Assembly (NCBI GenBank): GCA_922989275.2
Contig: OV277866.1
Span: 32,257,246 to 32,321,245, forward strand
From: Gari tellinella
Lineage: Eukaryota > Mollusca > Bivalvia > Cardiida > Psammobiidae
Length of the DNA stretch: 64,000 nt
Reading direction: 5' to 3'
The position numbers were made by a program, and so were the translations under genes. This document shows, in pieces, positions 524-63,838 of the stretch. Each line of letters begins with the position of its first letter. The first letter of the stretch is position 1. Under the pieces are notes generated by a model, which worked only from the letters and a program-made list of their open reading frames with translations, did not search any database and was not told the DNA's origin.

Positions 524-955
524 CAGTAGAGAAAACGTTATTCTTTCCCAATAGACACGTTTACGTTAAAACTATTATTTCCCGTGCAAACAGTTTGGAG
601 CCAGATCAGACGCCGGGTAACCCGGCGTCTGATCCGGTTCCAAACTTTTTGCCACTCAGATTAACATGATAAGTCAGAATTGCCGAAAAGTCGTATTTTT
701 CTACGTTTTATTGAGATGCGTTTGCGTTTTGTTTGCGTATAAACGGTAAAGAATAATAATAATAATAATAATATCGACTTTATTTCATGTGGATTACATA
801 TTTGGTATCGAAAAACAAACCAATTTTCAATATGGTCCACAAACAAAATTAACATATATACAACACGAAGGAATACAATTACAAATCAGTATTTTTTTTT
901 TTTTAAACTTTTGCAAACAGAGTGGACCCTGAAAAGAATAACGTCATCTCCACTG
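524..955 (-). mobile_element. A-family MITE split by a retroposon insertion
   Basis: The left end CAGTAGAGAAAACG follows TA at 522-523. The body runs in minus orientation (CCCAATA side on the left) through the class I hairpin at 583-650 to AAAGAATAA at 748-756. The missing right end, AAAGAATAACGTCATCTCCACTG, resumes at 933-955. The 9-bp AAAGAATAA is repeated on both sides of 757-932, as expected for a target-site duplication made by an insertion into this MITE. Confidence 0.75.
757..932 (-). mobile_element. Retroposon fragment with (ATT)n tail nested in an A element
   Basis: Read on the minus strand, this insert ends in an AATAAAGTCGAT stretch followed by (ATT)n, a microsatellite 3' tail like those of CR1/L2-group LINEs and their SINEs. 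It is flanked by a 9-bp direct repeat, AAAGAATAA (748-756 and 933-941). The insert is only about 176 bp, so it is either a short SINE or a heavily 5'-truncated LINE. No coding sequence remains. Confidence 0.6.
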
Positions 956-981
956 TTCTGTTCTGTTCTGTTCTGTTCTGT
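953..981. repeat. (TTCTG)n microsatellite
   Basis: About five tandem TTCTG units directly follow the CACTG terminus of the A element. They may derive from slippage on that terminus or from the tail of another retroposon. Confidence 0.8.
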
Positions 982-2020
982 AACCTTGTGGTGTTTTATC
1001 TAATATGACGTCCATCGAGTAGTAACAGATATATTATATATATATAGCCCTCCATGCCATAGAATGACATATCAAACAGAGATATTTGCTTAAATTGGTA
1101 AATATATGAGTGTATGTGAATACAACAGCATTTAATAAAATCTTAGTTACTTCAAGCATTTACAGTGCTGCTGATAAAAACAAAAATATAATTTCTACAA
1201 GAAATGCCACTTTTCAAATCTTGAAACAGTGCCTGTACGGAAAGGACTATATTTTACTGACTTTTCAAAATTCATTTTTGTGGTAATAAATGTATTGCAA
1301 ACCAGAAAATATATAGTAATTAAGGTATTTAAGAAGTTTGTTTTTCAACATTTTTTTTATTTAGGCAAGGATTTAATTTTATGACTAGATATTTTAACGA
1401 ACGAATGTGTGGATGCTGAACGAATGCATTATAGGTATGCAATTGTGGAGTAAAGATACCACTATGTTTTGTCTATACAGCAGAAAATCGGCAGAACTTT
1501 TCGTTCGTATGAAAGAGCAAACAGTACAGAATCGGATGAAACGCCGCGTACATGAAAGCCTAGTTTCTACTACAGTAGTAAAGGGTAAAAACGAGTTCGA
1601 AGTTTGAAGTATCGACTGTATACCGGTATTGTAACTTGTATGAAAAGGAGAAGAATTTATACAAGTTTTGCACCAAAACTTGATTTCTTATCCTAATGTT
1701 TATATGTGAAGGTGTATGTATTGTCAGCTATGACTGTAATTATATTGAAATAAAATACTGTTCAAACTAAAGCGACGCTCTTCAAAGGCAGGTAAATTGA
1801 CAATCGTTCTAATTTTCCGCACGTAACCCTTATCATGCTGAATTGTGATTTGATGAAAGTACAATGTATATGTATATGGTTTGTGAAACATCTTCAAAAT
1901 CTGTTTTTATGCTTCTTAAATTGAAGAAAGATTGAGCATGAGTGGTAAACAGTTAGGATTTAGATAACTGACGCCGCGCTTAGCAAATAAGTCAAGTCTC
2001 GCTTACATGTAGCATAAGAG
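982..2020. other. No gene recognised; one LINE-like 3' tail
   Basis: Mostly unique AT-rich sequence with a (TA)n stretch near 1030-1045. At about 1745-1775 a TGAAATAAAATACTG motif followed by TTCAAACTAAAG resembles tails near 6450, 13440, 24095 and 63720, so a degraded retroposon may end here. Confidence 0.4.
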
Positions 2021-2024
2021 TTAA

Positions 2025-2265
2025 CCCTTTAGCCGCTTAAGTCGCATAAAGTCGACTTTGCAAACAGTTTGAATCCATATCAGACGCCGCATGACGCGGC
2101 GTCTGATAAGGATCAAAACTGTTTGACACTCGTATCGATAATGCCTGAGTCATACTGACTTAAATCTAACTTTGGAATGTTCTTGCAGACGGCAATATTG
2201 AAGTAGACGGCAATATGGCGGTGAAGAGGTAAAAACCTCACGACTTTGGTCCTGAGAGGTGAAAA
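2025..2265 (+). mobile_element. B-family TTAA element with class I hairpin
   Basis: Begins at TTAA (2021-2024) followed by CCCTTTAGCCGC. The hairpin at 2059-2126 has arms ACAGTTTGAATCC / GGATCAAAACTGT around a GACGCCGCATGACGCGGCGTC centre. Downstream, two GCAGACGG/GTAGACGG motifs and an AAAACCTCACGA stretch match the intact relative at 26612-26828. The right TTAA is not clear. Confidence 0.6.
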
Positions 2266-2439
2266 GAAAATTTAAATGATATCAATTACGCTGTCTGGCG
2301 AGCAGGTACATGTACATGTACATGCAGAACACGTGTTTAGCGTACGAAACAATTTTGCATTCACCCCACAGAGACTTATTTGACGCAATTTTTGTACTAC
2401 ATGCACTTATACAAATGGTTTTGAATAACAATGGAAGGC

Positions 2440-5812: not shown

Positions 5813-5964
5813 TCCTCTTAAGTAGGCACTAAGCTTAAATGGGTCAAAGTTTTTATTAAGACAGACGGGTACAAAACAATATTATTCGACGACATTGAGA
5901 TAATAATCCTGTAACAAAGTGTAACTTCTATTCTTCGGTAGTTGCAATGAATCATTTCTGTGTA

Positions 5965-6200
5965 CAGTGGAGAAAACGTTATTCTTTCCCGTTTAAACGC
6001 AAACGAATAGCACTAAAACTTAGAAAATGTCAATTTTTAAATATGTCTTACTATTCATTTTTATCTGAGTGGCAAACAGTTTGGAGCCTGATCAGACGCC
6101 GGATTACCCGGCGTCTGATCTGTCTCCAAACTGTTTGCAGTGGAAATAAACGTTTTAGCGTAAACGCGTTTATTGGGAAAGAATAACACATTATTCACTG
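5965..6200 (+). mobile_element. A-family MITE, near-complete
   Basis: Flanked by TA; left end CAGTGGAGAAAACG, right end ACATTATTCACTG. Plus orientation here means the end carrying GTTTAAACGC is on the left. The hairpin at 6071-6138 has a GCCGGATTACCCGGC centre. The 3' terminus has lost CTC. Confidence 0.9.
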
Positions 6201-6526
6201 TAACTATCAATATTATTCTTCTATTCTTCGGTAGTTGAAATGAATCATTTCCGTGTACATAGTGAAATATTCCACGCTTTGATATGAAGACAATGCAACG
6301 TTGACCGATACAGACACTTGGTATGAAAGTGGGAACCGTGTAGACCGTGATGAGACGCCGCAAGTTGTGCACAGCGTAATATCAGGGTACTGTACGCTCT
6401 GTTCACCATTGTCCTCTTTCTGTTATCTGAACTTCTGTACAAACATTGGGCAATAAAATATGTTTAAACTAATCTAAACTATGTCCTCTTTGTAAGACAA
6501 ATTAATGTCTTAAAAAGATTAAGCTA
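6201..6526. other. Degraded hairpin and LINE-like tail
   Basis: A decayed C-type hairpin (GTGTAGACCGTGATGAGACG, about 6335-6400) is followed by CAATAAAATATGTTTAAACT (about 6450-6470), a recurring retroposon-like terminus. No gene was seen. Confidence 0.4.
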
Positions 6527-6772
6527 CAGTGGAGAATCTGTTATTCTTTCCCGTTTAAACGCAAACGTACGCAAACGCAAAACACTAAAACGTAGAAAAG
6601 TACAACTTTCGGACAATTCTGATAAATAATGTTTATCTTGGTGGCAAACAGTTTTGAGCCTGATCAGACGCCGGTTTACCCGGCGTCTGACCTGGCTCCA
6701 AACTATTTGCACTGCAAATAATAGATTTAGCGTAAACGCGTTTATTGGGAAAGAATAACACATTCTCCACTG
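6527..6772 (+). mobile_element. A-family MITE, complete
   Basis: TA on both sides; ends CAGTGGAGAATCTG and CACATTCTCCACTG, so the two termini carry different allele motifs (ATCTG versus ATGTG). Length is 246 bp, the modal length of the family here. The central hairpin begins at about 6644. Confidence 0.93.
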
Positions 6773-6883
6773 TATATCATGCTTTACCAAGGCTTTGTTC
6801 GTCTATTGAATGTCCTTTTCTTAACATCCTTTTATAAATATCGTAGGGATAACGTTAGATCTAAATATGCCGTCTGATTTTAA

Positions 6884-7104
6884 CCCATTTATACCCAGCA
6901 GATTCTTCAATGTTTATATATTGGATTAGTCCATTTTTTATCAAAGGGATGCCTGGTCAAAATTTTCATTTTCTTTCTGTTTTATATTGAAATTCCTATC
7001 AGCAAACAGTGTAGACTCTGATCAGACGCCGCATAATGCGGCGTCTGATCAGAGTATACACTGTTTGCCTATGTCCCATATATGGGGTCGTAGGTACAAA
7101 TGGG
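6884..7104 (+). mobile_element. C-family TTAA element, complete reference copy
   Basis: 221 bp between TTAA sites (6880-6883 and 7105-7108). Terminal inverted repeats are CCCATTTATACCCA and TAGGTACAAATGGG. The class I hairpin at 7002-7068 pairs AGTGTAGACTCTGATCAGAC with its near-perfect complement around CGCATAATGCG. The CCC start after TTAA resembles piggyBac-type termini; the superfamily call is inference, since no transposase is present. Confidence 0.85.
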
Positions 7105-7309
7105 TTAATTTTCAAATTTCAATTTTATTCCAGTTTAGTTCATGTGATAAAATATCGCCATGAATGAAAAGTGTATCGATCCTGCCAGTCTGGGGAAGGC
7201 ACACCGATGGTGGGCCGAAACTGTCATGTAAGTTAAAACTTGTTTGGATATGCGAATGAAAACTAACTTTATAAACGCTAAGTTTGCTTAAAACGATTTG
7301 ATTCAGATA

Positions 7310-7508: not shown

Positions 7509-7634
7509 GGTTAAAAATGCATTTAGAAATACATTGTAACTCCTTATCAAAATATGTGGCTGTTGCATTATAGCTGGGAGTAAACAAATAAAACTTAATC
7601 TCATTGATCCCTGAAATTTCAAATGGTTCAATTA

Positions 7635-7885
7635 CAGAGGAGAAAATGCTGTTCTTTCCCGTTTAAACGCAAACGAAACGCAAACGAATAGCACTAAAAT
7701 GTAGTTCTAAAATGTCAATTTTTAAATATTTCTTACAATTCATTTTTATCTGAGAGGCAAACAGTTTTGAGCCTGATCAGACGCCGGGTTACCCGGCGTA
7801 AGATCTGTCTCCAAACTGTTTGCAGTGGAAATAAACGTTTTAGCGTAAACGCGTTTTTTGGGAAATAATAACACATTCTCCTCTG
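7635..7885 (+). mobile_element. A-family MITE, diverged copy
   Basis: Ends CAGAGGAGAAAATG and ACATTCTCCTCTG carry a mirrored substitution (CAGAGG/CCTCTG versus CAGTGG/CCACTG), so both termini share the variant. It has an extra AACGCAAACGAA-type tandem piece and a hairpin starting at about 7757. Confidence 0.88.
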
Positions 7886-7899
7886 TAACCTATATATTT

Positions 7900-9148: not shown

Positions 9149-9501
9149 TACATAGCTCCCTCCTCAGAACGACCCTCTCAACAAAGACTCCCTCCTTACA
9201 ACAACGCTTGCCCCTGTCCCAAAAGAACAAGTCAACTAGTCCAACCTTTAACGGTTGCATATCGTCTGCTTATGACTATTGTCTGCTGTTTTTCTAAAAA
9301 TTACAAATTGGACATTTTGAAAAAATTAAACATAATGATGAGTAACAAACAGCTTGGATTCAGATCAGACGCCGCGTAACGCGCGTCTGATCTGGATTCA
9401 AGCTGTTTACAAATGGAAAGCAATTTACCTCCCAAGACATGTTACAACTCCCTCTGAACACCACACACACTCTTTGGTGTTGTTGTAGAGAGGGATTACT
9501 G
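9149..9501 (+). mobile_element. G-family element, degenerate copy
   Basis: Left end CTCCCTCCTCAGAACGACCC and right end GTTGTTGTAGAGAGGGATTACTG are diverged forms of CAGTGTTCCCTCTCTACAACG. The class I hairpin at 9347-9412 has CAGCTTGGATTC arms. GTCTGCTTATGAC and TGTCTGCTG motifs precede the hairpin. Confidence 0.75.
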
Positions 9502-9928
9502 TGGACACAAAACAGACTTATTTAGCATAGTAATTTAATTCATGGCCTTTTATGCCATTGTAAGATACTGCACTATCAAGTCCAAGCATATGTATCCAGG
9601 CGTTTGCAGGTACAGTTTAAATTCAGATCATACGCCAAGCAGTTGCTGGTCTGATCTGGTAAAAATCGTTTAACATGCATCTTAAGGTTACTTCGGCCAA
9701 AACGTCCGATAACTTGAGTTTGACATTTTAAAGGAGTACATGATTTAAAACCGGTCGTAATTGTGACAGTAAAAGGGACGGATGGGAAGAATCTGTTTAG
9801 TGTCATGGAAATGATACGCACCCAAGGGGACGAAAAAGTTGTTTTTCCCAAAAAGTAAATTGATGCGTTTGCTCTGGGAGTGATTTGGTTTTTACGATAA
9901 GCTTTAATTCCGATTAGATTACTAGTTA
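9502..9928. other. No recognised feature
   Basis: Unique sequence with a decayed hairpin-like piece at about 9610-9670. A 126-codon minus-strand open frame starting near 9956 runs out of the A element and has no recognisable domain. Confidence 0.4.
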
Positions 9929-10174
9929 CAGTGGAGAATGTGTTATTCTTTCCCAATAAACGCGTTTACGCTAAAACTATTATGACCACTGCAAAAAGTT
10001 TGGAGCCAGATCAGACGCCAGGTAACCCGGCGTCTGATCAGGCTCCAAACTGTTTGCCACCATGATAAACATGAATTATCAGAAGTGTCCAAAAGTTGTC
10101 CTTTTCTACGTTTTAGTGTTTTGCGTTTGCGTTTCGTTTCTTTTAAACGGGAAAGAATAACGTTTTCTCTACTG
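9929..10174 (-). mobile_element. A-family MITE, complete
   Basis: TA-flanked, 246 bp, minus orientation. Ends are CAGTGGAGAATGTG and CGTTTTCTCTACTG. Hairpin at about 9991-10058 with a GCCAGGTAACCCGGC centre. Confidence 0.92.
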
Positions 10175-10274
10175 TATGTAAGGGAATTGAGTTTTGTTCG
10201 TTGTGTTTTATACAACACACATACAGATAAATGTAGTATTGTCAGGTATCGTCAGATAGGCCAGTAAGTATCTT

Positions 10275-10323: not shown

Positions 10324-11520
10324 AAGGGGAGATATGCACGGAGAAACAGAGACAACTACAACTTAGAGAGATATAAACCTATACAAAGAGACAGACAGAT
10401 CGACGGACAAGTCAGATATACAGACACACAGACATACAGACAGACACAGACAGATAGAAAGACAGAAAGGGGAGACATTTACAGATACCGAGATACACAG
10501 AGACAAAGCAGGTGATACTTAAGTCAAGACAGATAGCAGACAGACAAACACAAACTGATAGGGAGGGAGAGCGAGATGGAAAGAGAGATAGAGATATTGA
10601 GAGACATGCAGGAGGACAAAACAGAGATACAAAAGACATACAGTGGAGAAATCGTTATTCTTTCCCGTTTAAACGGAAACGAAACGCACACGCAAAGTAC
10701 TAAAATGTAGAAAATGACATTTTTTCACAATTCTGAATATTGGTTTTAACCTGGACGGCAAACAGTGTGGAGCCTGATCAGACGCCGGGTTACCCGGCGT
10801 CTGATCTGGCTCCAAACTGTTTGCATTGGAAATAATAGATTTAGCGTAAACGCGTTTATTGGGAAAGAATAACGTTTTCTCCACTGTACCGACACATGCA
10901 GAAATACATCAAGAGAGGGGATATGGGACAGAGCCAGAGAGAGGGACAGAGGCAAATATACTCTCAAAGGTAGAAACAACTAAAATGATAGGCAGACATA
11001 CATACAGTCAATACAGAAAGACGGACATAAATTTACACACACACTAACAGACAGACAGATAAACAACAAAACAGACACAAACAGATACAGAGAGAGGGGA
11101 GATAGAGATACACATAGAGACACAGAGAGACATACAGACAAACAAGGCGGTCAGTTCAGACAGACAAGAAAGAGTACAGATAAATAGGCAGACAGAAAGA
11201 CAGACAAACGGACGGAAACATAGACAGAGAGACATACACATAAGAATTAAACGACAGAGAAAAAGAAAACGAAATACAGATAGGAAAACAGACAAATTAA
11301 GAGAGACACACCAACACCCACATAGCCAAACACACAGACAGACAGAGTCGGTCATAGAGAACTTGGAAATAGAGACAGACAGAGGAAGAGACAGGCAGAC
11401 ATGGGCGCAGATACAGACAGCCAGACAGAGGCAAAGATAGACTGAGACAGCCAGACATAGACTTTCATAAGACACAGAGACAGCCAGACAGAGAGTCTAA
11501 AATAGATATAAAGACATACG
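10275..11520. repeat. Degenerate GACA/GA-rich simple-repeat array
   Basis: Imperfect GACAGA, GAGAGACA and ACACAGAC units extend for over 1 kb, with a (GA)n core near 10290-10325. The array is interrupted by an intact A element. Long open frames in several registers are products of the simple repeat, not genes. Confidence 0.9.
10641..10886 (+). mobile_element. A-family MITE inserted in the GACA array
   Basis: TA-flanked; ends CAGTGGAGAAATCG and CGTTTTCTCCACTG; hairpin from about 10759. The simple repeat continues on both sides, so this insertion is younger than the array. Confidence 0.93.
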
Positions 11521-13556: not shown

Positions 13557-13582
13557 TACACTGTTTGTAACGGAAGCATATA

Positions 13583-13828
13583 CAGTGGAGAAAACGTTAT
13601 TCTTTCCCAATAAACGCGTTTACGCTAAAACTATTATTTCCAGGGCAAACAGTTTGGAGCCAGATCAGACGCCGGGTAACCCGGCGTCTGATCAGGCTCC
13701 AAGCTATTTGTCACTCAGATAAACATCAATTGTCAGAATTGACTATAATTTGTACTTTTCCATGTTAAAGTGATTTGCGTTTGCGTTCGTTTGCGTTTAA
13801 ACGGGAGATAATAACGCTTTCTCCACTG
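13583..13828 (-). mobile_element. A-family MITE, complete
   Basis: TA-flanked, 246 bp, minus orientation; ends CAGTGGAGAAAACG and CGCTTTCTCCACTG. Hairpin from about 13643 with a GCCGGGTAACCCGGC centre. Confidence 0.93.
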
Positions 13829-14660
13829 TAATTAGAGGCATTTGAGTGAATATTAAAGTTCAAAACACAACTTTTTGAATATTTTTTTGTATTCATAAAA
13901 AGACCCCACTTCAATCAGGCAAAATAAAAAAAAAATTCCTGTGCTTCCGGTAACCCGACCGACCCTAGCTTTTCCCTACTACCCTAAAAGGTTGTTTTTT
14001 TACATTTTTCGAAAAATGTTTCAGCGAATGTCGAAAATCTTTGCTTCGAATGTGACAGGTGTTTTTACAGAGCGTGTAATAGAAGCTTTTCTCCACTTAA
14101 TTGTTTATAAAGCTACTTTATAGTCGTTTAAGTGTTTAAAAATTAATTGTTCAATAAGATTTAGCAAATATCTATGTGAAATTTGATCTAAGTCTGTCAT
14201 AAAGTACCTTCCTTGCACATATGAAGGAAAAACAATTATGATCTGCTAGTTAATTAATCATTGACACATTCAACATACAAACAACACATTTCATTGAAAC
14301 AGTTGATATGCATTTAACACATTTCAAAACTTAATTAACTCAATTTATCATAATTTTATAAGATACTATAAAGTATTTTGCTGTTTTGGTACATCAATAT
14401 TGATCAACGATTATACCAGTTTAGATCTTAAAGGTAATTCTGGAAACGGGACCTACAAATAGAATCAACAATTAATTTTGAATGGATATTTATTATAGTG
14501 TTTATGAATAACCATAAGGCTATGCACAATAAAGTACTAAAATACAAAGTAAAGTTTTTGATGTATTAATATCATTATATAAAATACTCCATCAGAAAGT
14601 AAAATATAGAATCTCTACTATTATATAAAAAAAATCGTCGCTAGGACTCAACTCAATGTG
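13829..14660. other. No recognised feature
   Basis: AT-rich sequence with several A and T runs. The open frames are short and show no domain. No repeat shared with the rest of the window was noticed. Confidence 0.45.
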
Positions 14661-45887: not shown

Positions 45888-45888
45888 A

Positions 45889-46079: not shown

Positions 46080-46084
46080 TACAT

Positions 46085-47726: not shown

Positions 47727-47774
47727 ATCGCTGAATATGCTCCATAAGACATGTATTTTTATTATATACTAGCA

Positions 47775-49059: not shown

Positions 49060-49149
49060 TTAATTGTTTGCTATGGACAATACAGTTTTAGAAAACAAAT
49101 GCGGCACTTTGAAATAAGTGTTAAAACGACTTTCCCTTTTCTAAATCTT

Positions 49150-50040: not shown

Positions 50041-50045
50041 TACAT

Positions 50046-50263: not shown

Positions 50264-50624
50264 GCGGAGTTGTTTTGTTTGCTGCACTTTAAGGAATGGC
50301 ACGCATGCTGCTTCCAATTTCACTACCAGACAAGATGACACTTTATTGTTTTAAATTGCATCGCAGAGTCGAGAGGCTCGATACAATTGCCCAAGGCGCT
50401 CTAGGCAAACGGAATCTTGCGTGCAAAAAACACATCGTAAGAATTGCGCTTGTCTTACGTAGCCAATATATTGGAAAAACGTTGATAGAATTCCGATAAA
50501 CTTGTTCATGCCTTGCGATAGTGATTTGTTTATATATATTTGTATCAATATGAAGTGGAACGGCGTACAAACTCGCCTGAATTACTTTAACTATTTGCCA
50601 CGCTAGCGGCGGAACACTGATTAC

Positions 50625-50780
50625 ATTTGCAAACAGTTTGGATACAGATGAGACGCCGCGTCACGCGGTGTCTCATCTGGATCCAACTGTTTGAGACACC
50701 CTCCTTATTCTGAAAAGAAAGTTTATAAAATTCTATTTTTAGATAAATAGCAGACGATAATAGTTGCAGACGACAATATT
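50625..50780 (+). mobile_element. B-family hairpin unit (copy 2)
   Basis: Counterpart of 46660. The stem has lost pairing at several places (GGATACAGATGAGACG / CATCTGGATCCAACTG). AGCAGACGATAATAGTTGCAG follows. Confidence 0.75.
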
Positions 50781-50901
50781 TCTTATCATTCAAAGAGTTG
50801 ATCAATACACGATAGAGCCCGGATATAGCATTGCCAATGTTCAAAAGGAGGCTTTCGTTCCATTTTCAACCCTTTTCATGCTGAAATATCTTTATGGAAT
50901 A

Positions 50902-51055
50902 CAGTCGAAATCCGATACTACGAATTCGTTTAAATGGTTTTTACCGGTATTTCGTAAGTTAAATTTTGACAAGTCGATCTTAGCTTAGCCACGTTTTAAC
51001 TTTGAAATTTGGGTATTTTCGAACTAACGCAAGTTCGTAGAATCGAGGTTTTACT
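50902..51055 (+). mobile_element. P-family MITE with a paralogous empty site
   Basis: CAGTCGAAATCCGATACTACG at the left and TAGAATCGAGGTTTTACTG at the right with TA on both sides. Copy 1 has uninterrupted GGAATATTCTAT at 46933-46944, showing insertion at TA with TA duplication. Confidence 0.9.
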
Positions 51056-51403
51056 GTATTCTATATGTGCAAAAGGACTAGCTTATGTTGATTCTTGGCC
51101 TGTGTATTATTTTAGAAATAAATTGGATAAAAAAAGTGAAGATCCTGATCAGAGGATCCCTGGAGCTAAGTGATCATGGTATATGCTGTTTGCAAAAGAT
51201 ACAAATATTGTTTTATTTACATCATGGAAAGGGATTGCGGCATGTATCTTCAACTGCAATGATGTTGTGTTCGATATTTGTTTTCAAACTATCTTTGGCA
51301 TCTTGACAAACAATGATAAAAATTTTAAAACAAAATGAATCCAGCTTTTCTTGAATGCTCTGTTAAACAATTATTTAGCTTTTAAACGTTAACTGTGCGT
51401 TCT

Positions 51404-51647
51404 GGTCCCGAGGTTATAAAACTTAAAACGGACTCTGTGCTCAAAACTCAGTTTTGATCTCATGCTCTAGTTTTTACATAACATGCATGGACTTATTTCT
51501 GTTTCCTCATTTGGATATATCTTTACCGTATAATTATGTATGCAAATATTTGTTGTATATAAAATGTTCGCCGGAGAATTATGAGTTGAGAAAAGTTCTG
51601 AGTTTTGAGCACAGAGTTCGTTTTAAGTTTTATAACCTCGGGGCCTG
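51404..51647. mobile_element. Foldback N, copy 2-specific insertion
   Basis: Arms GAGGTTATAAAACTTAAAAC / GTTTTAAGTTTTATAACCTC and ACTCTGTGCTCAAAACTCAG / GAGTTTTGAGCACAGAGTTC. It sits at a different place from the N of copy 1. Confidence 0.82.
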
Positions 51648-51867: not shown

Positions 51868-52193
51868 TAGCATTGCGGTGAAAGAGCAACTGAACCATTA
51901 TTGACATCCCCATTGAGAAAACCGTCTAGCATGATGCGGAAATATATCGACATTTAATTTGTTCAGTTAAACCACATGAGAGTGCAGCGGATGAATATGT
52001 CGTGAAGCTGATGTGCGTGAAGTTGCGGCGCCAGTGCAATAATCAGAATGGACCTTTAACCAGTCTGCAGAAACACGGAAAAGTAGTTCCAGTGCGAAAG
52101 TATACATATTCAACACACTCTAGGAATGTTTTATAGTTTTAAAACATGTCATTTAGAAACATGTAGTTATATAATACCCTGTATTAACCCTTA
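51868..52193. other. No recognised feature
   Basis: Unique sequence; no coding or repeat signal identified. Confidence 0.4.
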
Positions 52194-52197
52194 TCCT

Positions 52198-52385
52198 GCG
52201 GTGATGTCGTCTGCTTCGACATTGTCGTCTGCAACGTTCGTTAAATTCAGATTTATACATTTTTTAAGTAAAGAAACCTAAAGAAGAGTGTCAAACAGTT
52301 TGGATCCAGATCAGACACCGCGTTACGCGGTGTCTGATCTGGATCTAAACTGTTTACAAAATTCAATAGAGTCGCGACCAGCAGG
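52198..52385 (+). mobile_element. B-family element, right end replaced by LINE 2
   Basis: TTAA (52194-52197), CCCTTATCCTGCGGTG, GTCGTCTGCTTC and GTCGTCTGCAAC motifs, then hairpin 52291-52358 (GTTTGGATCCAGATCAGAC / GTCTGATCTGGATCTAAAC) with the mirrored core CACCGCGTTACGCGGTG. AGTCGCGACCAGCAG follows, then LINE sequence. Confidence 0.78.
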
Positions 52386-53325
52386 CTTGTTAATAGCTAA
52401 ATGTAAATCTATTGGCGGACTTCCCTACGATGTTTTTACCAAACTTTATGATTCCGTTGTTTGGCCTGTTGTGAACTATAGTGCTCCGTTGTGGGGGTAT
52501 CGCACTTACTCCTGCATCGAAGCTGTTCACAACAGAGCGCAAAGATTTTTTCTTGGAGTTGGAAAGTACACTCCAAATGATGGGTTGTCTGGTGAAATGG
52601 GCTGGAAACCACCGGTAGTCCGCCAGTGGAAAAGTATTGCTTTGTATTGGATAAGGCTTAGTCACATGGACATGTTAAGAATAAATAAAAGAGTAGCTAT
52701 TTGGTCTTTTAACAAGTCTCGTCGTTCGTGTAAGAATTGGTGTTACAATATTTCAGCTTTTCTTATTGCAAATAACTTGGCTTGTTATAATTCACTAGAA
52801 GTCCCGATTGCTAGAATGTTTGCCAAAAAGGTCGAAGAACAAGTGCATGATGATTTTGTTAAAAATTGGCAAATAAAAATTAATAACAGTATTGGTCCAT
52901 CAGGACGTGGGCGAAACAAATTAAGATTATATAAAACATTCAAGGAAGAATTTGGTGTTGAGGCTTATTGTAAAAGAATTTTGCCACCGAGGCATCGTTC
53001 AGCTTTCACTAAATTTAGGTTAGGGGTGGCACCCATACGTTTAGAAACTGGAAGATATGAGGGTCTGGATGAAAAACTAAGAATTTGTCCTGTATGTGAT
53101 AAGAATGTTGTCGAGAATGAGGTACATGTTTTGTTACACTGTGAATTATATAACGACCAGAGAGAAGAATTGTTTTTAAAGGCGATACATTTTAATCAAA
53201 ATTTCTGTAATATGTCAGACTGTGATAAATTGAGATATCTCTTTTCTAACACGGATATGGTTAGAACGTGTGCCAAAACCTGTTTTAATATTTTACATAG
53301 ACGACAGCTTTTTGTAAGCAGATAA
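52385..53325 (+). CDS. LINE C-terminal region (post-RT), partial
   Basis: An uninterrupted frame of about 310 codons to TAA at 53323-53325. It begins inside the protein (LLIAKCKSIGGLPYDVFTK), just after the RT palm, then LYDSVVWPVVNYSAPLWGYR (the thumb/connection signature of LINE proteins) and RFFLGVGKYTPNDGLSGEMG. Near the C terminus FRLGVAPIRLETGRY leads into C-x2-C-x9-H-x4-C (CPVC...HVLLHC) at about 53086-53143. Codons upstream of 52385 that stay open are translated MITE hairpin, not LINE. There is no native start codon. The lack of stops suggests a fairly young insertion. It cannot act alone because the RT catalytic core is missing. Confidence 0.85.
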
Positions 53326-53864: not shown

Positions 53865-53886
53865 TAATTATGTATGCATCATTTAA

Positions 53887-54130
53887 CTCATTGAGCCCTA
53901 GTGACGCATATATGCGTCCTCTATTTTAAGTGTACCAGTGAAAAGTACACTTTTCTTATGCAAACAGTGAAGTCCCTGATTAGAGGGCTCCTGCAGGAGC
54001 CCTCTAATCAGGGACTTCACTGTTTGTCATTTTGTAATATAATATAAAAAAAGCAACCCTAAATAGTCTAAAATGGACCAGCCTTTATTGTAAACTGGAA
54101 TTGTCCATTAAAGTTTCAGGGGACAATGAG
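53887..54130 (-). mobile_element. D-family TTAA element, complete
   Basis: TTAA sites at 53883-53886 and 54131-54134; ends CTCATTGAGCCCTAG and AGGGGACAATGAG. The hairpin at 53961-54028 is fully paired, including the mirrored GATTAGA/TCTAATC variant, with core GAGGGCTCCTGCAGGAGCCCTC. Confidence 0.85.
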
Positions 54131-54134
54131 TTAA

Positions 54135-55172
54135 CAAACAGTGTACTAGTGAAGAGAACGCTCGTCTTAGGCAAAACAGTTTAAATGTGATATTCCGAGT
54201 TCTTACAACATACAATATGGAGAAAAACTAGCGAGTTAGCTCATTATCCCCTGATATCGTGTAATTCCGAAAGCCCGAAAGCCCGATTTGTCGACAAACA
54301 TCTACAAACGGAAGAAAAAGAATCATAGATCTACGACGAAATACCGATAACGTCAAATCAATAAATCAGTGACGCAGACCAAAATGTCGCGAAAAGTTGT
54401 TCGGTGAAATTTTGGTGCTCCACACGGGATGCAATTTGCACTTTTGCTTTAAAATTGACAAACAATTTAGTTTTAAAACAAAAGTCGTTAAAAAGCATGA
54501 AATAAATCAAATAACTGTTTTTCAGTGAAAGATCGAAATGTATTGCATGCATGAACATCAGTCTGTTATATTTTCAGTAAAATTGACAAATGCCAAAACA
54601 AATCGGATGAGGTTAGAGAAAAGGCAAAATCAGACACTCAGACTTAGCACTGGTGCTATTAAATCAATTCCGATCATACCACCACTTTTGTCATAGAAAC
54701 TAATTTTACTGTCTGTATGCAAAGTTTGAAAAATTTGGTAATTACTCTCCAAAGGTGCACCTACCCCCTTAAGTCAAAATATCTAAAGTTTGAATTGAGA
54801 AATAAAGACAGACGACAATGTTTTAAAATTGATGACGTCACGAGAGTGAAGGGTTTAATGTACTATTTGTACATGGCAGGCTGAGGCGGTATTTGGTAAG
54901 CGAAACTTAGCATGGCAACACTCATTATAGAACCTTCAAGGCCAGTGAGTATGAGACTACAATATCGAGGAAAGTGAATGTGAAGTGAAAATCTCGCGAG
55001 ATTTGATGGTATTATTTCTTGTATGTTTTATTATTAAATCCACTGGTTCTGTATACATAATTGAAGGAAATGTCGAACACGATTTTGTGTGATAACAAAA
55101 ATGAGTTTTGTTAGACTATTGTTCAGTACTATGCCACATAATGACAGGTATACAACTGAAACATTGAAAGTA
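54135..55172. other. No gene recognised
   Basis: About 1 kb of mostly unique sequence. Around 54770-54860, AGACAGACGACAATG and CACGAGAGTGAAGGGTTTAA are the right end of a decayed B-type element. Open frames are short. Confidence 0.4.
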
Positions 55173-55418
55173 CAGTGGAGAATCTGTTATTCTTTCCCGT
55201 TTAAACGCAAACGTACGCAAACGCAAAGCACTAAAACGTAGAAAAGAATAACTTTTGGACAATTCTGATATTTCCTGTTTATCTTGGTGGCAAACAGTTT
55301 GGAGCCTGATCAGACGCCGGGTTACCCGGCGTCTGATGTGGCTCCAAACTGTTTGCACTGCAAATAATAGTTTTAGCGTAAACGCGTTTATTGGGAAAGA
55401 ATAACGTTTTCTCCACTG
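55173..55418 (+). mobile_element. A-family MITE, complete
   Basis: Ends CAGTGGAGAATCTG and CGTTTTCTCCACTG; TA-flanked; one stem change (GTCTGATGTGG). Confidence 0.94.
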
Positions 55419-55923
55419 TAGTTACAGTCATGTACAAAATATATCGAAAAATCAGTGTATAAGAAAAATAGATAGATCTGTCATAATTGTGATTTCAATT
55501 AAATCATATTTACGTTATACATGTATCTTGCTGTCAATGTTACAGACAGGCGGCTTATTAAAGCAGACTAAAATTAAAATGTCTTTACTGTTAGCCTGCT
55601 ATAATTCCTAAAATCTGACCTGGTCCTACACTGTTTTCGTAAGACATATGTACTCTACGCATGTACACAGTTTGTAAAGGGTGTAATATTGTGTTCATTA
55701 TTTGAGTTTGAATCTGAGAAGTCAGAAATAAACTCTTCCAAAACAGTAAACGACTTTGAAGAGTAACGCGAAAATTGGTGACAATAAGCTGTTGATTGTT
55801 TTTTTTAATTTCATCTTATGCGATGAAGGGTCAAGTCATTTCTACAAATAAAATTATGTCAAACTTGTCAAATATGGTATAAGTATAAGTTTGAAATAAT
55901 GAGTAAAGGGTTGGCTTGTCAAA
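55419..55923. other. Decayed class II and D-type fragments
   Basis: TTAAAGCAGACTAAAATTAAAA / TTACTGTTAGCCTGCTATAA (about 55557-55610) is an eroded class II hairpin. GGTCCTACACTGTTTTCG and CATGTACACAGTTTGTAAAGG (about 55621-55680) match the right part of D. No gene. Confidence 0.45.
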
Positions 55924-56350: not shown

Positions 56351-56483
56351 TTCTGTCACCACCACCTCCGCTGTTAACTGTTTTTCCCCTCACAGAATAA
56401 ACAAGTCTTATCTTATGCAATGAGATATAATTTTCTAAATAAATGACGTCATGGCAGTGAGGGTCTCTTCAACGACGTGTTAA

Positions 56484-56726
56484 CTCTTTCCTCCCTGAAA
56501 CTTTAAATGGAAAATTCCAGTTTCCATTTTAGTCTAGTCCATTTCTGACTTTTAAGGGTTGTTTTTGTCAATGTTTGGCATTATGACAAACAGTGAAGAC
56601 CCTGATCAGAGGGCTCCTTTCGGAGCCCTCTGATCTGGGTCTTCACTGTTTGCACAGGACAAGTGTACTATTCACATGTACACTGTTTGAAAAGGACGCC
56701 TATAAGCGGGACTAGGGTTCAAAGGG
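56484..56726 (+). mobile_element. D-family TTAA element, complete; empty site for K
   Basis: 243 bp between TTAA sites (56480-56483, 56727-56730); ends CTCTTTCCTCCCTGAAAC and GGTTCAAAGGG. Hairpin at 56585-56652 with GAGGGCTCCTTTCGGAGCCCTC core. The stretch CCATTTTAGTCTAGTCC (56524-56540) is the uninterrupted form of the K insertion point at 24968-25513. Confidence 0.9.
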
Positions 56727-56730
56727 TTAA

Positions 56731-57111: not shown

Positions 57112-57115
57112 TTAA

Positions 57116-57321
57116 CCCATACATTGTGAAGCCAGAATATGCATGCACTTGCAAACAGTTTTGGACCCGATCAGACAGAGTGTAACTCGGTGTATGATAA
57201 GAGTCTAAAGTGCTAAACATTGTTTCTTAAACAGAAATGTCTAAAATCTGCATTTGAGAAACAAATTCAAATGACAACTTATAGAAAGATGATATGGTTA
57301 CGCCAATAAACACTGAATGGG
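57116..57321 (+). mobile_element. B-family TTAA element
   Basis: TTAA sites at 57112-57115 and 57322-57325; ends CCCATACATTGTG and CACTGAATGGG. The hairpin at about 57151-57213 is decayed (GTTTTGGACCCGATCAGAC / GTATGATAAGAGTCTAAAG). Confidence 0.7.
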
Positions 57322-57354
57322 TTAAAACTGTGCCTGCCGATCGCGACATGACTA

Positions 57355-57945: not shown

Positions 57946-58262
57946 CAGCGTTCCCTCGCTACAACGACATCCATCGGGACACACAAAGTGTGTGCGATGT
58001 TCGAAATGAGTCGTTATAGGGAGGGAAATTCGCAAACAGCTTAAATCCTGATCAGACGCCGCGTAACGCGGCGTCTGATCTGGATGCAAGCTGTTTGTCA
58101 CTCGTCATTAAGTTTATTTCTGTCAAAATGTCAATTATGTCACTTTTAGAAAAGCACCAGCAGTATAAGCATGATACATGATTGTCGCGTTAAGGGAATT
58201 GCGGCAAGTCGTTGTTAGGAGAGGGTCGTTGTTGGGAGGGCTGTTGAAGAGAGGGAACACTG
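57946..58262 (-). mobile_element. G-family element, complete
   Basis: CAGCGTTCCCTCGCTACAACG and GAAGAGAGGGAACACTG with TA at the right. Hairpin 58033-58098: GCAAACAGCTTAAATCC / GGATGCAAGCTGTTTG around a perfect GACGCCGCGTAACGCGGCGTC core. Confidence 0.85.
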
Positions 58263-58343
58263 TATAACTAATAGGTAACAGTGCGTTAAGACATTGCAGT
58301 GTATGTACGGAAGAAAATTTCATATGAAGAAGCAAGCAGTGTA

Positions 58344-58394
58344 CAGTGCTGCCTCTCTACAACAACCACCCAATGAGAGACAAAGATGTGCGTA
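58344..58394 (-). mobile_element. G-family left-end fragment
   Basis: CAGTGCTGCCTCTCTACAAC and CACCCAATGAGAGACAAAG, cut by the next A element. Confidence 0.7.
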
Positions 58395-58640
58395 CAGTGG
58401 AGAATGTGTTATTCTTTCCCAATAAACGCGTTTACGCTAAAACTATTATTTCCAGTGCAAACAGTTTGGAGCCAGATCAGACGCCGGGTAACCCGGCGTC
58501 TGATCAGGCTCCAAACTGTTTGCCACCAAGATAAACATGAATTATCAGAATTGTACAAAAGTTGTACTTTTCTACATTTTAGTGCTTTGCGTTTGCGTAC
58601 GTTTGCGTTTAAACGGGAAAGAATAAAAGATTCTCCACTG
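58395..58640 (-). mobile_element. A-family MITE, complete
   Basis: Ends CAGTGGAGAATGTG and AAGATTCTCCACTG; TA-flanked; inserted at the end of a G fragment. Confidence 0.94.
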
Positions 58641-58899
58641 TACTTATCCTTTGCACAATAGTACTGAGTCTACTGACCTCTCAAAGCTGGTCAATTACCA
58701 ATCCTCGTCTAAATCATGTTTCAAGTGACTGGTCACGTTCACTATATCATTATAAAGCATTAACGAATGTTTAGTTTAAGTTATTCAGATGGGTTGACAA
58801 ATGAAAATAATATTTAAACAGGGTTATATATAATTTCCGTCATCCAGATATCAGTAAATATTATGAAAACAGAAGTATCTATTATATCAACGGAGCCTT

Positions 58900-59535: not shown

Positions 59536-60064
59536 ATCCCAAGTGGAGACCTGCTCAATATTTACCATTTAATAGTAATGATTTACATATTTGCTTAGAT
59601 TCAGACAGAGCTCAAAACCTGAAGCCGAATGAGAGCAGAGCAAAACGTGCATAGGGGCTCTCACTGAATTGCGCTACATCCGCCCCCAGGATCAACCATA
59701 TTAAGCCAGAGAACATATATATCAAAATTAATTAAAGTTTAAACCGAGTTTGATTCTTTATTCTGGCTGGGAATTAAACAGAATGCACCATAAGGCCCAT
59801 TCTGTCATACTTCCGCTAACTATCAGTATTAACATTTAAGACCACTTGAACTTATGTCATTAAACGTGGAATATGATATTTTGATTTGATAGGATTTCAA
59901 GTATTTATTGAGTCCTTATTAAAGTAGATTAGACGTGCTATATGAAAATGCTAAAATGTAAATAACAGATGAATAGTTTAGTCAATTGACAAATGCTTTT
60001 ATCTCTTTGTTAGTTTAAACATATTCGATTACCCAATATTTGTATTTCAACCCTTCGCCTGCTA
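59536..60064. other. No gene recognised; decayed class II hairpin
   Basis: AATTAAACAGAATGCACCATA / GGCCCATTCTGTCATAC (59771-59810) is an eroded hairpin. The remainder is unique. Confidence 0.4.
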
Positions 60065-60309
60065 CAGTGGAGAAAACGTTATTCTTTCCCAATAAACGCG
60101 TTTACGCTAAAACTATTATTTGCAGTGCAAACAGTTTGGAGCCAGATCAGACGCCGGGTAACCCGGCGTCTGATCAAGCTCCAAACTGTTTGCCACCAAA
60201 ATAAACATGAATTATCATAATTGTCCAAAAGTTATACTTTTCTACGTTTTAGTGTTTTGCGTTTGCGTACGTTTGCGTTTAAACGGAAAGAATAACGTTT
60301 TCTCCACTG
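60065..60309 (-). mobile_element. A-family MITE, complete
   Basis: Matching ends CAGTGGAGAAAACG and CGTTTTCTCCACTG; TA-flanked; hairpin from about 60128. Confidence 0.94.
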
Positions 60310-60384
60310 TATATAATTACGACAGGTACATGTAGCTGATGTTTGCGAACAGTTTGGATGCAGGTCAAGCACCGCGTGCATTGG

Positions 60385-61444: not shown

Positions 61445-61464
61445 CTACGAAGGATTTACGTCTA

Positions 61465-61810
61465 CAGTACTCCTTCTCTAAAACAAATCACAATAAAAGA
61501 CAAAGAGTATGTGCGTAATTCGAAGGGAGTTGATACAGGGAGGGTCATTGGCTTACATTTGCAAACAGATTGAACCCAGTTCAGACGCCGCGTAACGCGG
61601 CATCTGATCTGGATTCAAACTGTCTGTCATTCGTCATAACCTTTTTTCTATCAAAATGTTCAATACATGTACTAGTATGTAATTTTGAGATAACAGCAGA
61701 CGATAGTGCAGCCGTGGAAAAATAATAATTGTCTTATTTGGGGAACAGTGTCCAGCGTTGTTGTAAGGAGGGATCCGTTGTTCAGGGGTCGTTTTAGGGA
61801 GGGAACACTG
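61465..61810 (-). mobile_element. G-family element
   Basis: CAGTACTCCTTCTCTAAAAC and TTTAGGGAGGGAACACTG, TA-flanked. Hairpin 61560-61627 (GATTGAACCCAG / CTGGATTCAAAC; GACGCCGCGTAACGCGGCATC core). AACAGCAGACGATAG follows at about 61690. Confidence 0.8.
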
Positions 61811-61878
61811 TACTGAAATCCATGTAATGATGCAGCATCCCATTTCTGGCAGCTATTGCCTGAATCGGCTCATTGATA

Positions 61879-62124
61879 CAGTGGAGAAAGCGTTATTCTT
61901 TCCAAATAAACGCTTTTACGCTAAAACTATTAATTGCAGTACAAACAGTTTGGAGCCAAATCAGACGCCGGGTAACCCGGCGTCTGATCAGGCTCCAAAC
62001 TGTTTGCCACCAAGATAAACAAGAATTATCAGAATTGTCCCAAAGTTGTTCTTTTCTACGTTTTAGTGCTTTGCGTTTGCGTACGTTTGCGTTTAAACGG
62101 GAAAGAATAACAGATTCTCCACTG
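61879..62124 (-). mobile_element. A-family MITE, complete
   Basis: Ends CAGTGGAGAAAGCG and CAGATTCTCCACTG; TA-flanked; hairpin from about 61943. Confidence 0.94.
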
Positions 62125-62457
62125 TATCATAAGTATTGAAAGCAAGACATTCTAGCTTTCTTTGTAAACGCTGTAAAACTGGAGTTATAGGTTAAAAGTT
62201 TTAACTCAATCGGTAAATCGCCAGCCTATGAAGCGAGTTAGAACCTTGGTTTGGTCTGAATAAAAAGTAATCGCACCTAATGCTCCTTCGCTTGGCTTCT
62301 TTATCGATGCTTTATGCAGGGCCCGTAAACTGGTCAAACTGCTTTAAGCCATTTTTTGAAATAACAGTTTAGGCGTCTGGGTTTTTTTTTGTAAAGCAGA
62401 CGAAAATTGTATAGGAGGTGTAAAGTTTGAAGTCTATACATATCAACCCGAGCCTCG
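62125..62457. other. No recognised feature
   Basis: Unique sequence. A tRNA-like look around 62200-62260 was examined and not accepted. Confidence 0.4.
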
Positions 62458-62461
62458 TTAA

Positions 62462-62669
62462 CTCTTTACCAATGGCTTGTTTCTAATATTGAAGATAAGT
62501 GACCACGTAAAGAAGGTCGAAAGTAAAGCAGAATGCGCTTTCAGGCGCATTCTGCTTTCATTTCAGCCTGCGATCAGCTACAATATGCTAAAATATAGAA
62601 AATATTTCTTATGGTATACATATTCAATACTATAAACAGCGAAATTGCTTTCTACAGCGGAGGAGTGAA
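62462..62669 (+). mobile_element. E-family TTAA element
   Basis: TTAA at 62458-62461 and 62670-62673; left CTCTTTACCAATGGC; class II hairpin at 62506-62574 (AAAGAAGGTCGAAAGTAAAG / CTTTCATTTCAGCCTGC around AATGCGCTTTCAGGCGCATT). The right end AGCGGAGGAGTGAA has lost the GGGAAAGGG part. Confidence 0.75.
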
Positions 62670-62692
62670 TTAAACGCGTACAAATGCGTATA

Positions 62693-63059
62693 CAGTGAAA
62701 CCCCTCTAAACCGGACATGTGTGGGGACAACAAAAATGTCCGGTTTAAAGGGGTTTCCGGTTTAGAGGGGTTTTAACTTGTTTCTAGTATGGAAGATAGC
62801 TGAACACTTAAAGCAGGTTGAAAGTAAAACAGAATGCGCCTTAAGGCGCATTCTGCTTTACTTTCAACCTGCTTTAAGCTATCATTTGCTAGAATGTACA
62901 AACTATTTTCTTCAGTGTAAGAAAAAACCAAAGACGTAATAAGGCGTGTTGATGGTGTAATTGGTAAAAATAAAAAGGATTGGAAACGGGACCAAAGCTT
63001 TTGTCCGGTTTAGAGAGGATTCCGGTATTTAGAGGTTCCGGTTTAGAGGGGTTTCACTG
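62693..63059 (+). mobile_element. R-family TIR element holding an E-type hairpin
   Basis: CAGTGAAACCCCTCTAAACC at the left and GGTTTAGAGGGGTTTCACTG at the right, TA on both sides. Additional copies of TCCGGTTTAGAGG occur inward at both ends. The interior from TTAACTTGTTTCTAG (about 62773) to GCTTTAAGCTATC is E-family sequence with the class II hairpin at 62812-62880. This is either an E insertion or a chimera. Confidence 0.82.
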
Positions 63060-63136
63060 TATATGGAGTAAAGGGTTATACATATTTGGTGTCATCAAAA
63101 GTTGTTTTGTCTTTAAATGTTACCGGTAACAAGTGA

Positions 63137-63310
63137 TACGATGAGGAAATCGTTATTCTTTATATCAATAAACGCATTTGACTTAAAACAATCACTTGCA
63201 TGGCAAACAGTTTTTGATGCAAGGTCTGCCTGATCAATCTCCAAACTGTTTCCTATTCTGATTAAAATAAGTCGTCATTTTCAGTTTCTACATTTTATTG
63301 CAGTTTTTTG
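63137..63310 (-). mobile_element. A-family MITE, degenerate
   Basis: GAGGAAATCGTTATTCTTTA, ATCAATAAACGCATTTGAC, GGCAAACAGTTTTTGATGC / CAATCTCCAAACTGTTTCC and TTTCTACATTTTATTGC. Confidence 0.6.
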
Positions 63311-63770
63311 TTTCTTTCTTCTGTAAAATTCGTAGACCGTAAACTTTTACTAAACCTAAACGTTCACCATCTTTGTTCCGATGAGATGATATGCGTTTAT
63401 TTGCTTCCATTCTGATTTCAATTACCTGTGTGGTCTCCATATCAAGCAACATACGGATTACGGGTAACTTAGCAACAAGCTTTGTAGGAACATCCGGCGG
63501 AAATCACGCGAGTCGCGAGACTTTGTGGCAGATATTGCTTTGTGTATTTTATAATCAGAGACGCTGTCATTGAAAGCAAACTAAATAAACTCCATCCGTC
63601 ATTTGTTTGTATAGTAATGAAAAGGAAAATCGGCTCTTCTGTTTTCAATGACAGCTCACGGAATTACTCATTGATTTTTGCACGTTGCTCTTATCCTTTT
63701 TACCGTCGATCGCGAGAATGGAAATAAAATATGTTTAAACTAAATCGTCGATCGCGATTTAGCCGGTAAT
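63311..63770. other. No accepted gene; LINE-like tail
   Basis: A 60-codon plus-strand frame at 63391-63573 begins MRLFASILISITCVVSI, resembling a signal peptide, but nothing recognisable follows and no splice context was established. GGAAATAAAATATGTTTAAAC (about 63719) is the recurring retroposon-like terminus. Confidence 0.35.
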
Positions 63771-63838
63771 AACAAACTGTTTTGATCCAAATCAGACGCC
63801 GAATAATTCGGCGTCTGATCTGGATCAAAACATTTTTA
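63771..63838 (+). repeat. Class I hairpin with a distinct mirrored core
   Basis: CTGTTTTGATCCAAATCAGAC / GTCTGATCTGGATCAAAACAT around GCCGAATAATTCGGC, where GAATAATTC replaces the usual GCGTAACGC symmetrically. Confidence 0.82.

Follow-up and report, generated by a model that had tools for sequence, protein, structure and literature searches.

Conserved palindromes of TTAA miniature elements and their capture by TA elements in the bivalve Gari tellinella

Introduction

Miniature inverted-repeat transposable elements (MITEs) fill a considerable part of bivalve genomes, according to the accessible text of a bivalve transposon study (PMC10294476), in whose accessible main text the word hairpin is absent. 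The CMITEs and CMITE-IN of Acropora corals are short TTAA elements of about 100 bp with CCC-type ends, with an estimated 1,600 copies in A. millepora (Wang et al. 2010, PMC2872659). The accessible part of that article describes an internal region of about 75 nt that is more conserved between families than the ends, proposes that this region matters for transposition, and reports a new element that arose by nested CMITE insertion; the words hairpin, palindrom and secondary structure are absent from its main text. In another case, the Tc1/mariner-type MITE MER6 carries a captured conserved domain of a short interspersed element (SINE), as described in the accessible part of an article that also mentions the V domain of SINEs (Luchetti et al. 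2019, PMC6887750). Here we analyzed a stretch of 64,000 nucleotides of the bivalve Gari tellinella (contig OV277866.1), hereafter the window, in which two hairpins of about 66 to 70 nt, class I and class II, lie inside MITEs with TTAA ends as well as inside MITEs with TA/CAGT ends.

The hairpin's home is the set of TTAA MITEs, and at least two TA families captured it by nesting. We consider it probable that the palindromes are the core of the TTAA MITEs, that TA elements captured them through nesting and the composites multiplied, and that the palindrome was kept as an aid to propagation.

Results

Two hairpin classes recur in elements with different ends

The window was analyzed together with 200 kb from elsewhere in the same genome (twenty 10-kb stretches on 14 contigs, from 1.5976 Gb in 80 contigs), giving a basic sample of 264 kb to which all counts refer unless stated otherwise. 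Profiles built from the hairpins of an earlier sequence-based description of the window, the original prediction, found 208 class I and 117 class II matches. One shuffle of the 264 kb in two-base blocks gave zero matches for either class, which rules out chance palindromes. The window alone held 76 class I matches (61 of at least 56 nt) and 15 class II matches (10 of at least 56 nt), and the 200-kb sample held 132 and 102, respectively, with 0 to 17 class I matches per 10-kb stretch. Taken at face value, extrapolation from these 20 stretches gives a genome-wide total of approximately 1 million matches for class I and 0.8 million for class II. A stricter pattern of exact 9-nt arms around a middle of 10 to 40 nt, which excludes the full 49-nt middle, matched 11,526 places genome-wide, and its reversed control matched none. 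Within the window, GCAAACAGT occurred exactly 40 times and ACTGTTTGC 31 times; AAAGCAGGTTGAAAG was found at 43609 and 62810, with its complement at 62861.

Elements were delimited by seeking inverted ends with TTAA or TACAG around each hairpin. The family letters follow the original prediction, except that family C here may cover its families C and D. Class I was internal to the TA/CAGT families A (250 bp) and G (about 334 to 364 bp), and to the TTAA families B (228 bp) and C (about 250 bp) and a varied group N/T/U/W/X (about 200 to 240 bp). Class II was internal to the TTAA family E (about 252 bp) and the TA family H (371 to 403 bp), and a class II variant to the TA family K (about 209 bp). 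The central position of class I in A, G, B and C and of class II in E and H, as claimed in the original prediction, was confirmed in the window and in the 200-kb sample, where the same combinations of hairpins and ends recurred. At 85% coverage, we counted 67 copies of A, the most numerous TA family in the sample, 13 of G, 11 of K, and 2 of H, and 52 copies of E, 18 of C, and 9 of B; the models of N, T, W, and X overlap, so that their 39, 23, 31, and 24 copies belong to one common pool.

The TTAA families had a TTAA target and CC-rich ends, those of family C beginning with CTC. The piggyBac-type mark, TTAA duplication with ends beginning CCC or CCT, was present except in family C, whose ends were CTC or CTA. 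That TTAA serves as the target was shown by the empty sites that correspond to the TTAA insertions in H and G (see below). Kolobok transposons also use TTAA. Of the Tc1/mariner-type mark, TA duplication with CAGT ends, the ends were found in the TA families, and the TA duplication was shown directly only for a hairpin-free CAGT element (50900-51058, compared with an empty site at 46938). This element lies in a segmental duplication (46044-46938 and 50006-51058), one copy of which carries the hairpin-free TA/CAGT MITE of about 155 bp and the other the empty TA. Judged from the ends alone, TTAA and TA elements would be moved by different transposases.

Beyond the hairpin, the families N, T, U, W, X, and G had in common a polar tail of about 85 nt, which as a rule closed in two GCAGACGAYA motifs. 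Tail-only alignments of G with N, G with T, U with N, and U with G beat all 1,000 shuffles. The paired motifs lie about 17 nt apart at the tail end in N, T, W, X, and G, for example in window 52205-52290, and are possibly a subterminal protein-binding site. With N, T, and G, families B and C had only the hairpin in common; flank comparisons scored best for B and N on the right, out of register (14/1,000 shuffles), and for C and A on the right (53/1,000).

The original prediction proposed that the hairpin is a transferable cassette, perhaps itself mobile. An independent cassette that inserts into MITEs alone would explain the same hairpin between unrelated ends, as well as the sharing of the hairpin alone by B and C with N, T, and G. 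Against it, 315 of the 325 hairpins matched the body of a MITE for at least 25 nt beyond the hairpin on one or both sides. Of the other 10, whose target duplications were left unchecked, 5 were pieces shorter than 50 nt. Moreover, it was a whole TTAA element that moved in H and G. This explanation is largely refuted, and we regard it as highly improbable.

At least two TA families acquired the hairpin by nested insertion

The H copy L005:3664-4066 holds an E-type element with a TTAACCC start and a GGGTTAA end. Its alignment to E begins at position 8, with a shortened left end, and runs to the end. The H copy of the window (62691-63061) contains the same nest with both inner ends damaged, and in the H element of L041 the nested element spans the full length of E, apart from one internal gap, and is bounded by TTAA on each side. 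The junction of the H arm, TTAACCC, and E was found at 1,081 places genome-wide and at none in the reversed control; among the matches listed (about 100), the E end was either full or shortened by 8 nt. When up to 3 mismatches were allowed, the empty site predicted for H matched 14 places, and the TTAA was intact in 12; a second empty-site pattern matched 4 places exactly, and both reversed controls gave zero. Four of the 14 places were inspected, and both element ends were located by motif in 2 of those 4. At one locus, L043, the H element is complete at 180 bp, lacks the hairpin, and has its TTAA empty.

In family G, the consensus to the right of the tail, GCAGCAGTGAAAGNGTTAG, matches the right part of the TTAA family T through a relic of the TTAA end (0/1,000 shuffles). 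On the left side, TTAA adjoins the hairpin body, as AAAATTAAC, at 21 places, 7 of which were read beyond the search pattern; in L034, the TTAA is kept on both sides. The empty site predicted for G matched 30 places (at most 3 mismatches in 33), 21 with the TTAA intact, and none in the control. These results show that H and G acquired the hairpin when a complete TTAA MITE inserted itself into a TA element at a TTAA site. Nested insertion, which the original prediction had named as fatal to its cassette idea, accounts for H and G, and K fits it less firmly.

The evidence from K concerns its relation to E. The two families have in common 12 bases beside the hairpin, AAGACAGGTGAC (0/1,000 shuffles), and the left end of E was found inside K arms at 41 places, 14 of which join at GTGTTTAACCC. 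At that join the K consensus reads GGTGTTTA followed by CGACAGG, which looks as if an E end had been deleted there. In family A, 63 arm pairs lay within 400 nt of each other; 59 were 60 to 95 nt apart, with the hairpin present, and 3 were 23 to 40 nt apart, which we read as hairpin deletions. No clean empty site of A was present among these 63 pairs, and the similarity of the A consensus tail to the TTAA module was not significant.

Composites of this kind have been amplified. The G composite junction was found at 23,802 places at the same length and mismatch limit as the 30 empty sites, a ratio of composite to empty of about 800:1; for H, with exact patterns of 25 set bases each, the ratio was about 270:1. 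These ratios agree with an aid to propagation, but such counts would also be affected by the greater age and decay of hairpin-free elements.

Insertions among MITEs recur. A elements were inserted in G elements in L032 and L034. A direct view of such nesting is given by L037, where a complete W element, TTAA to TTAA, lies inside the relic TTAA of a G copy; it was considered as the founding nest of G and rejected, being a later, second insertion into the relic.

Stem changes are mostly paired

The family consensus hairpins were nearly perfect, and the stem has evolved mostly by paired change. Differences between consensuses on both arms exceeded those on one arm by 6 to 1 for A and B, 9 to 1 for A and C, and 6 to 1 for E and K; A compared with N/T showed 2 paired and 2 one-sided differences. 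In a set of 12 hairpins of different subfamilies, drawn partly from the 26 of 325 that passed a strict pairing filter and partly picked by hand, 97.6% of cells were paired. Of their 31 stem pairs, 16 had changed on both sides, 13 were invariant, and none had changed on one side only. The covariation score was 0.400, compared with 0.120 after shuffling (0/500) and at most 0.107 when slid.

A palindrome could also be kept without selection if its arms correct each other by hairpin-templated repair or conversion. The predominance of two-arm differences between families agrees with this, as does the excess of paired over unpaired rare double changes (42 to 26 cells). Nevertheless, single-arm changes persist, with 106 in family A compared with 2 double paired and 4 double unpaired changes; the corresponding within-family counts for G, N, and B, based on poor alignments, were left out. 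By our reasoning, unbiased correction changes the pairing and not the per-site rate, whereas the stems have fewer shared substitutions, as described below. Mutual correction of the arms is a quite improbable explanation of the conserved palindrome.

The compensatory changes would also be expected of a function in RNA, in which a transcript hairpin (a small-RNA precursor, decoy, or terminator) aids escape from silencing or affects host genes. The fold is very stable, with energies of -36.6 to -41.2 kcal/mol and z scores of -13 to -16 for three hairpins with DNA parameters. G-U intermediates between families were scarce, however, with 3 one-sided standard-pair cells compared with 49 two-sided cells, which is more like a DNA palindrome, and no Rfam family reached its gathering threshold in the window. 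We hold an RNA-level role to be improbable.

Shared substitutions are depleted in the stems

Variants shared by many copies were read as having arisen in spreading lineages, and rare variants as mostly post-insertion. Each family alignment comprised copies covering at least 85% of the family model, up to a maximum of 60 (60 of the 67 A copies), and the comparison of stem and spacer left out the outer 26 nt and the loop. The test covered A, G, K, E, C, B, and T; U (one copy), H (two copies), and N, W, and X (models overlapping T) were set aside. Sites with common variants in stem and spacer, respectively, were 1/60 and 25/129 in A, 3/60 and 41/241 in G, and 7/60 and 9/83 in K among the TA families, and 5/60 and 47/127 in E, 6/60 and 34/129 in C, 3/60 and 8/107 in B, and 13/60 and 83/123 in T among the TTAA families. 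Pooled, the TA families gave 11/180 versus 75/453 (P = 2e-4) and the TTAA families 27/240 versus 172/486 (P = 5e-13). Shared substitutions were about 2.7 to 4.2 times fewer in the stems of A, E, C, and T and 1.5 to 2 times fewer in those of G, K, and B. The depletion in A was repeated with window-only copies (P = 8e-4) and with sample-only copies (P = 7e-7).

Rare variants per site and copy were similar in stem and spacer in the three largest families (0.0229 and 0.0242 in A, 0.0373 and 0.0335 in E, and 0.0615 and 0.0654 in T). In trees built without the hairpin, stem changes on internal branches were 0.25 to 0.32 of those in the spacer in A, E, and T; the deficit in G was intermediate, and K, C, and B showed no stronger deficit on internal branches. 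The stem also had fewer sites with common variants than the outer 26 nt, with 5/60 versus 18/52 in E, 13/60 versus 27/48 in T, 6/60 versus 14/52 in C, and 3/60 versus 9/48 in B, so that within these TTAA families an internal region, the stem only, is more conserved than the ends. The corresponding values in the TA family A were 1/60 and 6/52.

For the well-sampled families, we read this as constraint that probably acts during propagation, although post-insertion effects may contribute. Because common variants, and not rare ones, are depleted in the stems of A, E, and T, and A is a TA family, the pattern suggests selection on the palindrome as the elements propagate, irrespective of the transposase that moves them. 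The alternative proposal of the original prediction, that the hairpin is a common functional signal, fits this apparent behavior, with compensatory change and strong stem depletion in A, E, and T.

The same composites might be passive passengers. Abundant TTAA MITEs would then nest in TA elements and multiply by chance, and the conservation of the stem would reflect recent shared ancestry. Repeated nesting is seen (A in G and the complete W in G), and one successful founder copy can yield a large burst. Recent ancestry should, however, shield the spacer as much as the stem, whereas in A, E, and T the stems have far fewer common variants. The differences between family stems are mostly paired changes, and occurrence between TTAA ends as well as TA ends is seen for both hairpin classes, which are unrelated to each other. 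Passive passage is, in our judgment, rather unlikely, a verdict to which the lack of significant stem constraint in K and B runs contrary.

Features of the window

The positions of the elements are collected in Table 1. Among the neighboring features, a duplicated block (42433-44006 and 47732-49260, 93% identical over 1.58 kb) carries both E copies at 43557 and 48812, and the left end of an A element falls within a tandem duplication (34738-35067 and 35070-35400, 98.5% identical). At 16627-17400 and 19772-21275 lie tandem arrays, whose units measure about 181 and 160 bp. TTAA elements with perfect or near-perfect 20-nt ends, TTAAAACGAACTCTGTGCTC, and without a class I or II hairpin are located at 44099-44288 and 51423-51626.

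Table 1. Positions of hairpin-bearing elements in the window
Feature	Position	Strand	Remarks
Family A, reference copy	58393-58642	+	TA/CAGTGGAGAA ends; class I hairpin 58457-58523
Family A, plus copies	9927-10176, 13581-13830, 22428-22669, 35342-35591, 45133-45383, 60063-60311, 61877-62126	+	
Family A, minus-strand reference copy	33347-33596	-	
Family A, minus copies	5963-6202, 6525-6774, 7633-7887, 10639-10888, 23392-23641, 26333-26583, 29032-29281, 31424-31673, 37353-37602, 37706-37954, 40751-40999, 49793-50042, 55171-55420	-	
Family A, copy	31029-31257	-	Hairpin shortened
Family A, degraded copy	522-758	+	Hairpin 586-652; at the start of the range of the original prediction
Family A, copy	45887-46081	+	Most of hairpin deleted
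Family G	24334-24667	+	TA/CAGTGTTCCCTC-type ends; class I hairpin 24432-24497 and captured TTAA-MITE tail
Family G, copy	61463-61812	+	Hairpin 61561-61626
Family G, copy	57946-58263	+	Hairpin 58032-58097
Family G, degraded copy	38039-38436		
Family G, copy	17936-18293	-	Hairpin 18131-18196
Family G, copy	9150-9502	-	Hairpin 9346-9408
Family H	62691-63061	+	TA/CAGTGAAACCCCTC ends; nested end-damaged E-type TTAA MITE; class II hairpin 62809-62876
Family K (TA), hairpin of one copy	41549-41614	+	Class II hairpin
K-like copy	near 41184-41350		
Family B	6880-7108	+	TTAA/CCC ends; class I hairpin 7002-7068
Family B, second copy	40504-40731		
Family C	53883-54134	+	TTAA/CTC ends; class I variant hairpin 53960-54026
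Family C, copy	56480-56730	-	Hairpin 56587-56653
Family C, partial copies	14734-14918, 22948-23164, 25509-25709		
Family E	43557-43808	+	TTAA/CCC ends; class II hairpin 43608-43675
Family E, second copy	48812-49063		Within duplicated stretch
Family E, copy	62459-62687	+	Hairpin 62508-62572
Family T	26608-26832	+	TTAA ends; shortened class I hairpin and tail
Family T, further copy	2024-2257	+	
Family T, further copy	31721-31936	-	
Family W	52187-52396	-	TTAA ends; class I hairpin 52292-52356; tail with two GCAGACGAYA motifs
Family W, related copy	near 18949-19140	-	
Family X	46626-46840	+	TTAA ends; class I hairpin 46666-46731 and tail
Family X, second copy	near 50590-50790		
Family U	57112-57325	+	TTAA ends; class I hairpin 57151-57213 and tail

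The longest listed open reading frame (ORF) of the window comprises 345 codons (52288-53325), starts at a hairpin, and presumably resembles the end of a retrotransposon reverse-transcriptase region. It had no Pfam match, and a Pfam search of four window ORFs gave none. A protein search with one translated A element also gave no match, and the class I half-site had zero matches in scans of viral contigs and of genome contigs.

Discussion

Our results point to a sequence of events that starts from short non-autonomous TTAA elements, of the piggyBac type by their ends. The two palindromes, each about 66 to 70 nt long, would form the conserved core in large groups of these. Such elements would have inserted at TTAA sites inside short TA/CAGT elements, of the Tc1/mariner type by their ends, because the TTAA elements are so numerous. 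The inner TTAA ends would then have been lost by deletion or mutation, and the composite would have kept its palindrome and spread as a TA element. For H and G, the nesting evidence places the home of the hairpins in TTAA elements and their capture in at least two TA families; nesting, loss of the inner ends, and amplification of the composite are established for them.

The subsequent role of the palindrome is the more conditional part of this scheme. The stem appears to keep its pairing mostly through two-arm changes and to resist substitution in spreading lineages, those of the TTAA families and of at least one TA family, A, while individual copies would decay freely in the best-sampled families. 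The sequences suggest that the palindrome aids propagation. It may act in cis during propagation, whatever the transposase, and most simply as DNA. Cruciform extrusion could shorten the element and help its ends meet; another possible DNA route would be the exposure of the element during replication. Because the constraint is found in both TTAA and TA elements and G-U intermediates are scarce, a transposase-independent role at the DNA level is our first choice.

Several observations weigh against this explanation. With regard to capture, the TTAA was not intact in 9 of the 30 empty-site matches for G and in 2 of the 14 for H, and the 30 G places are known from the pattern alone, not as complete elements. 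Precise excision could have produced the empty sites, and a chance burst could account for the excess of composites. Five of the 41 E ends in K are clearly other events, located in the TTAA from which K's own hairpin rises, and the 41 may be later insertions into K rather than its origin. In family A, a TTAA relic was sought and one spurious place alone was found; among 11 old A copies, preselected partly on the first bases of the tail, the tail similarity to N was weak (7/2,000 shuffles), and the comparisons with T, G, and W gave 43, 113, and 718 of 2,000 shuffles, respectively.

With regard to the stem, the partial choice of the 12 hairpins for good pairing biases that set in favor of covariation, a bias from which the consensus comparison is free. 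The depletion of common variants was clear in A, E, and T but less so in C and G, and neither K (P = 0.67) nor B (P = 0.4) reached significance. Rare variants were also fewer in the stems of G, K, C, and B, and in those of the window-only A set (0.0189 versus 0.0335), and private changes were fewer in the stems of G, K, and B. Stem changes on terminal branches were likewise lower, at 0.52 to 0.65 of the spacer in A, E, and T, and tree-based terminal changes were fewer in stems with ratios of 0.67 and 0.55. Because rare, private, and terminal changes are also fewer, part of the stem deficit may be a post-insertion effect or an effect of unresolved trees.

A stronger version of the proposed role makes the palindrome, as a cis-acting DNA structure, an amplification signal independent of the transposase, which would increase the spread of whatever short element captures it. 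We advance this version only tentatively. If it were true, hairpin-free TA elements would stay rare while hairpin-bearing composites reach thousands of copies, and selection among elements would keep the stem paired across elements moved by different enzymes. The system bears on the question of why a few MITE families explode and others stay rare. The TA elements before and after palindrome capture, with exact junctions, come close to a natural experiment within one genome. As the stem is conserved in a TA family as it is in TTAA families, a role for internal DNA structure in transposon success becomes directly testable. The core of one kind of short element can also pass to another kind, which by its ends has a different transposase.

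The original prediction stated that no such system had been described. Searches of the full-text literature with pieces of the hairpin DNA and peptide pieces gave no match, and such a system was not found in print by a search that covered few subscription journals. The statement was nevertheless too strong, for the coral CMITEs have a conserved core and an element made by nested insertion (accessible part of PMC2872659). They are the closest known system, with the TTAA target, CC-rich ends, conserved internal region, and nesting-made element also seen here. In contrast to the present hairpins, the published 60-nt CMITE core folded not clearly better than its shuffles (z = -0.65). This 60-mer had no match longer than 12 nt in the 264 kb, and against the family consensuses no match had an E value better than 0.56.

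Two other systems resemble this one in part. The central domains of SINEs (V, CORE, Deu, and the like) are common to families with different ends; these are retrotransposed elements, however, and the domains are not known to be hairpins maintained by paired change. MER6 is alike in that a foreign conserved domain is carried and amplified as a composite, but its domain comes from a SINE and not from a TTAA MITE, and is not described as a palindrome in the accessible part of the article (PMC6887750). The CMITEs are all TTAA elements, and the accessible text of PMC2872659 reports no transfer into TA elements, compensatory change, or propagation-level constraint. A conserved core and nesting were already known from the corals; relative to that text, the system of G. 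tellinella adds the transfer of the core into TA elements and the paired evolution of its stem.

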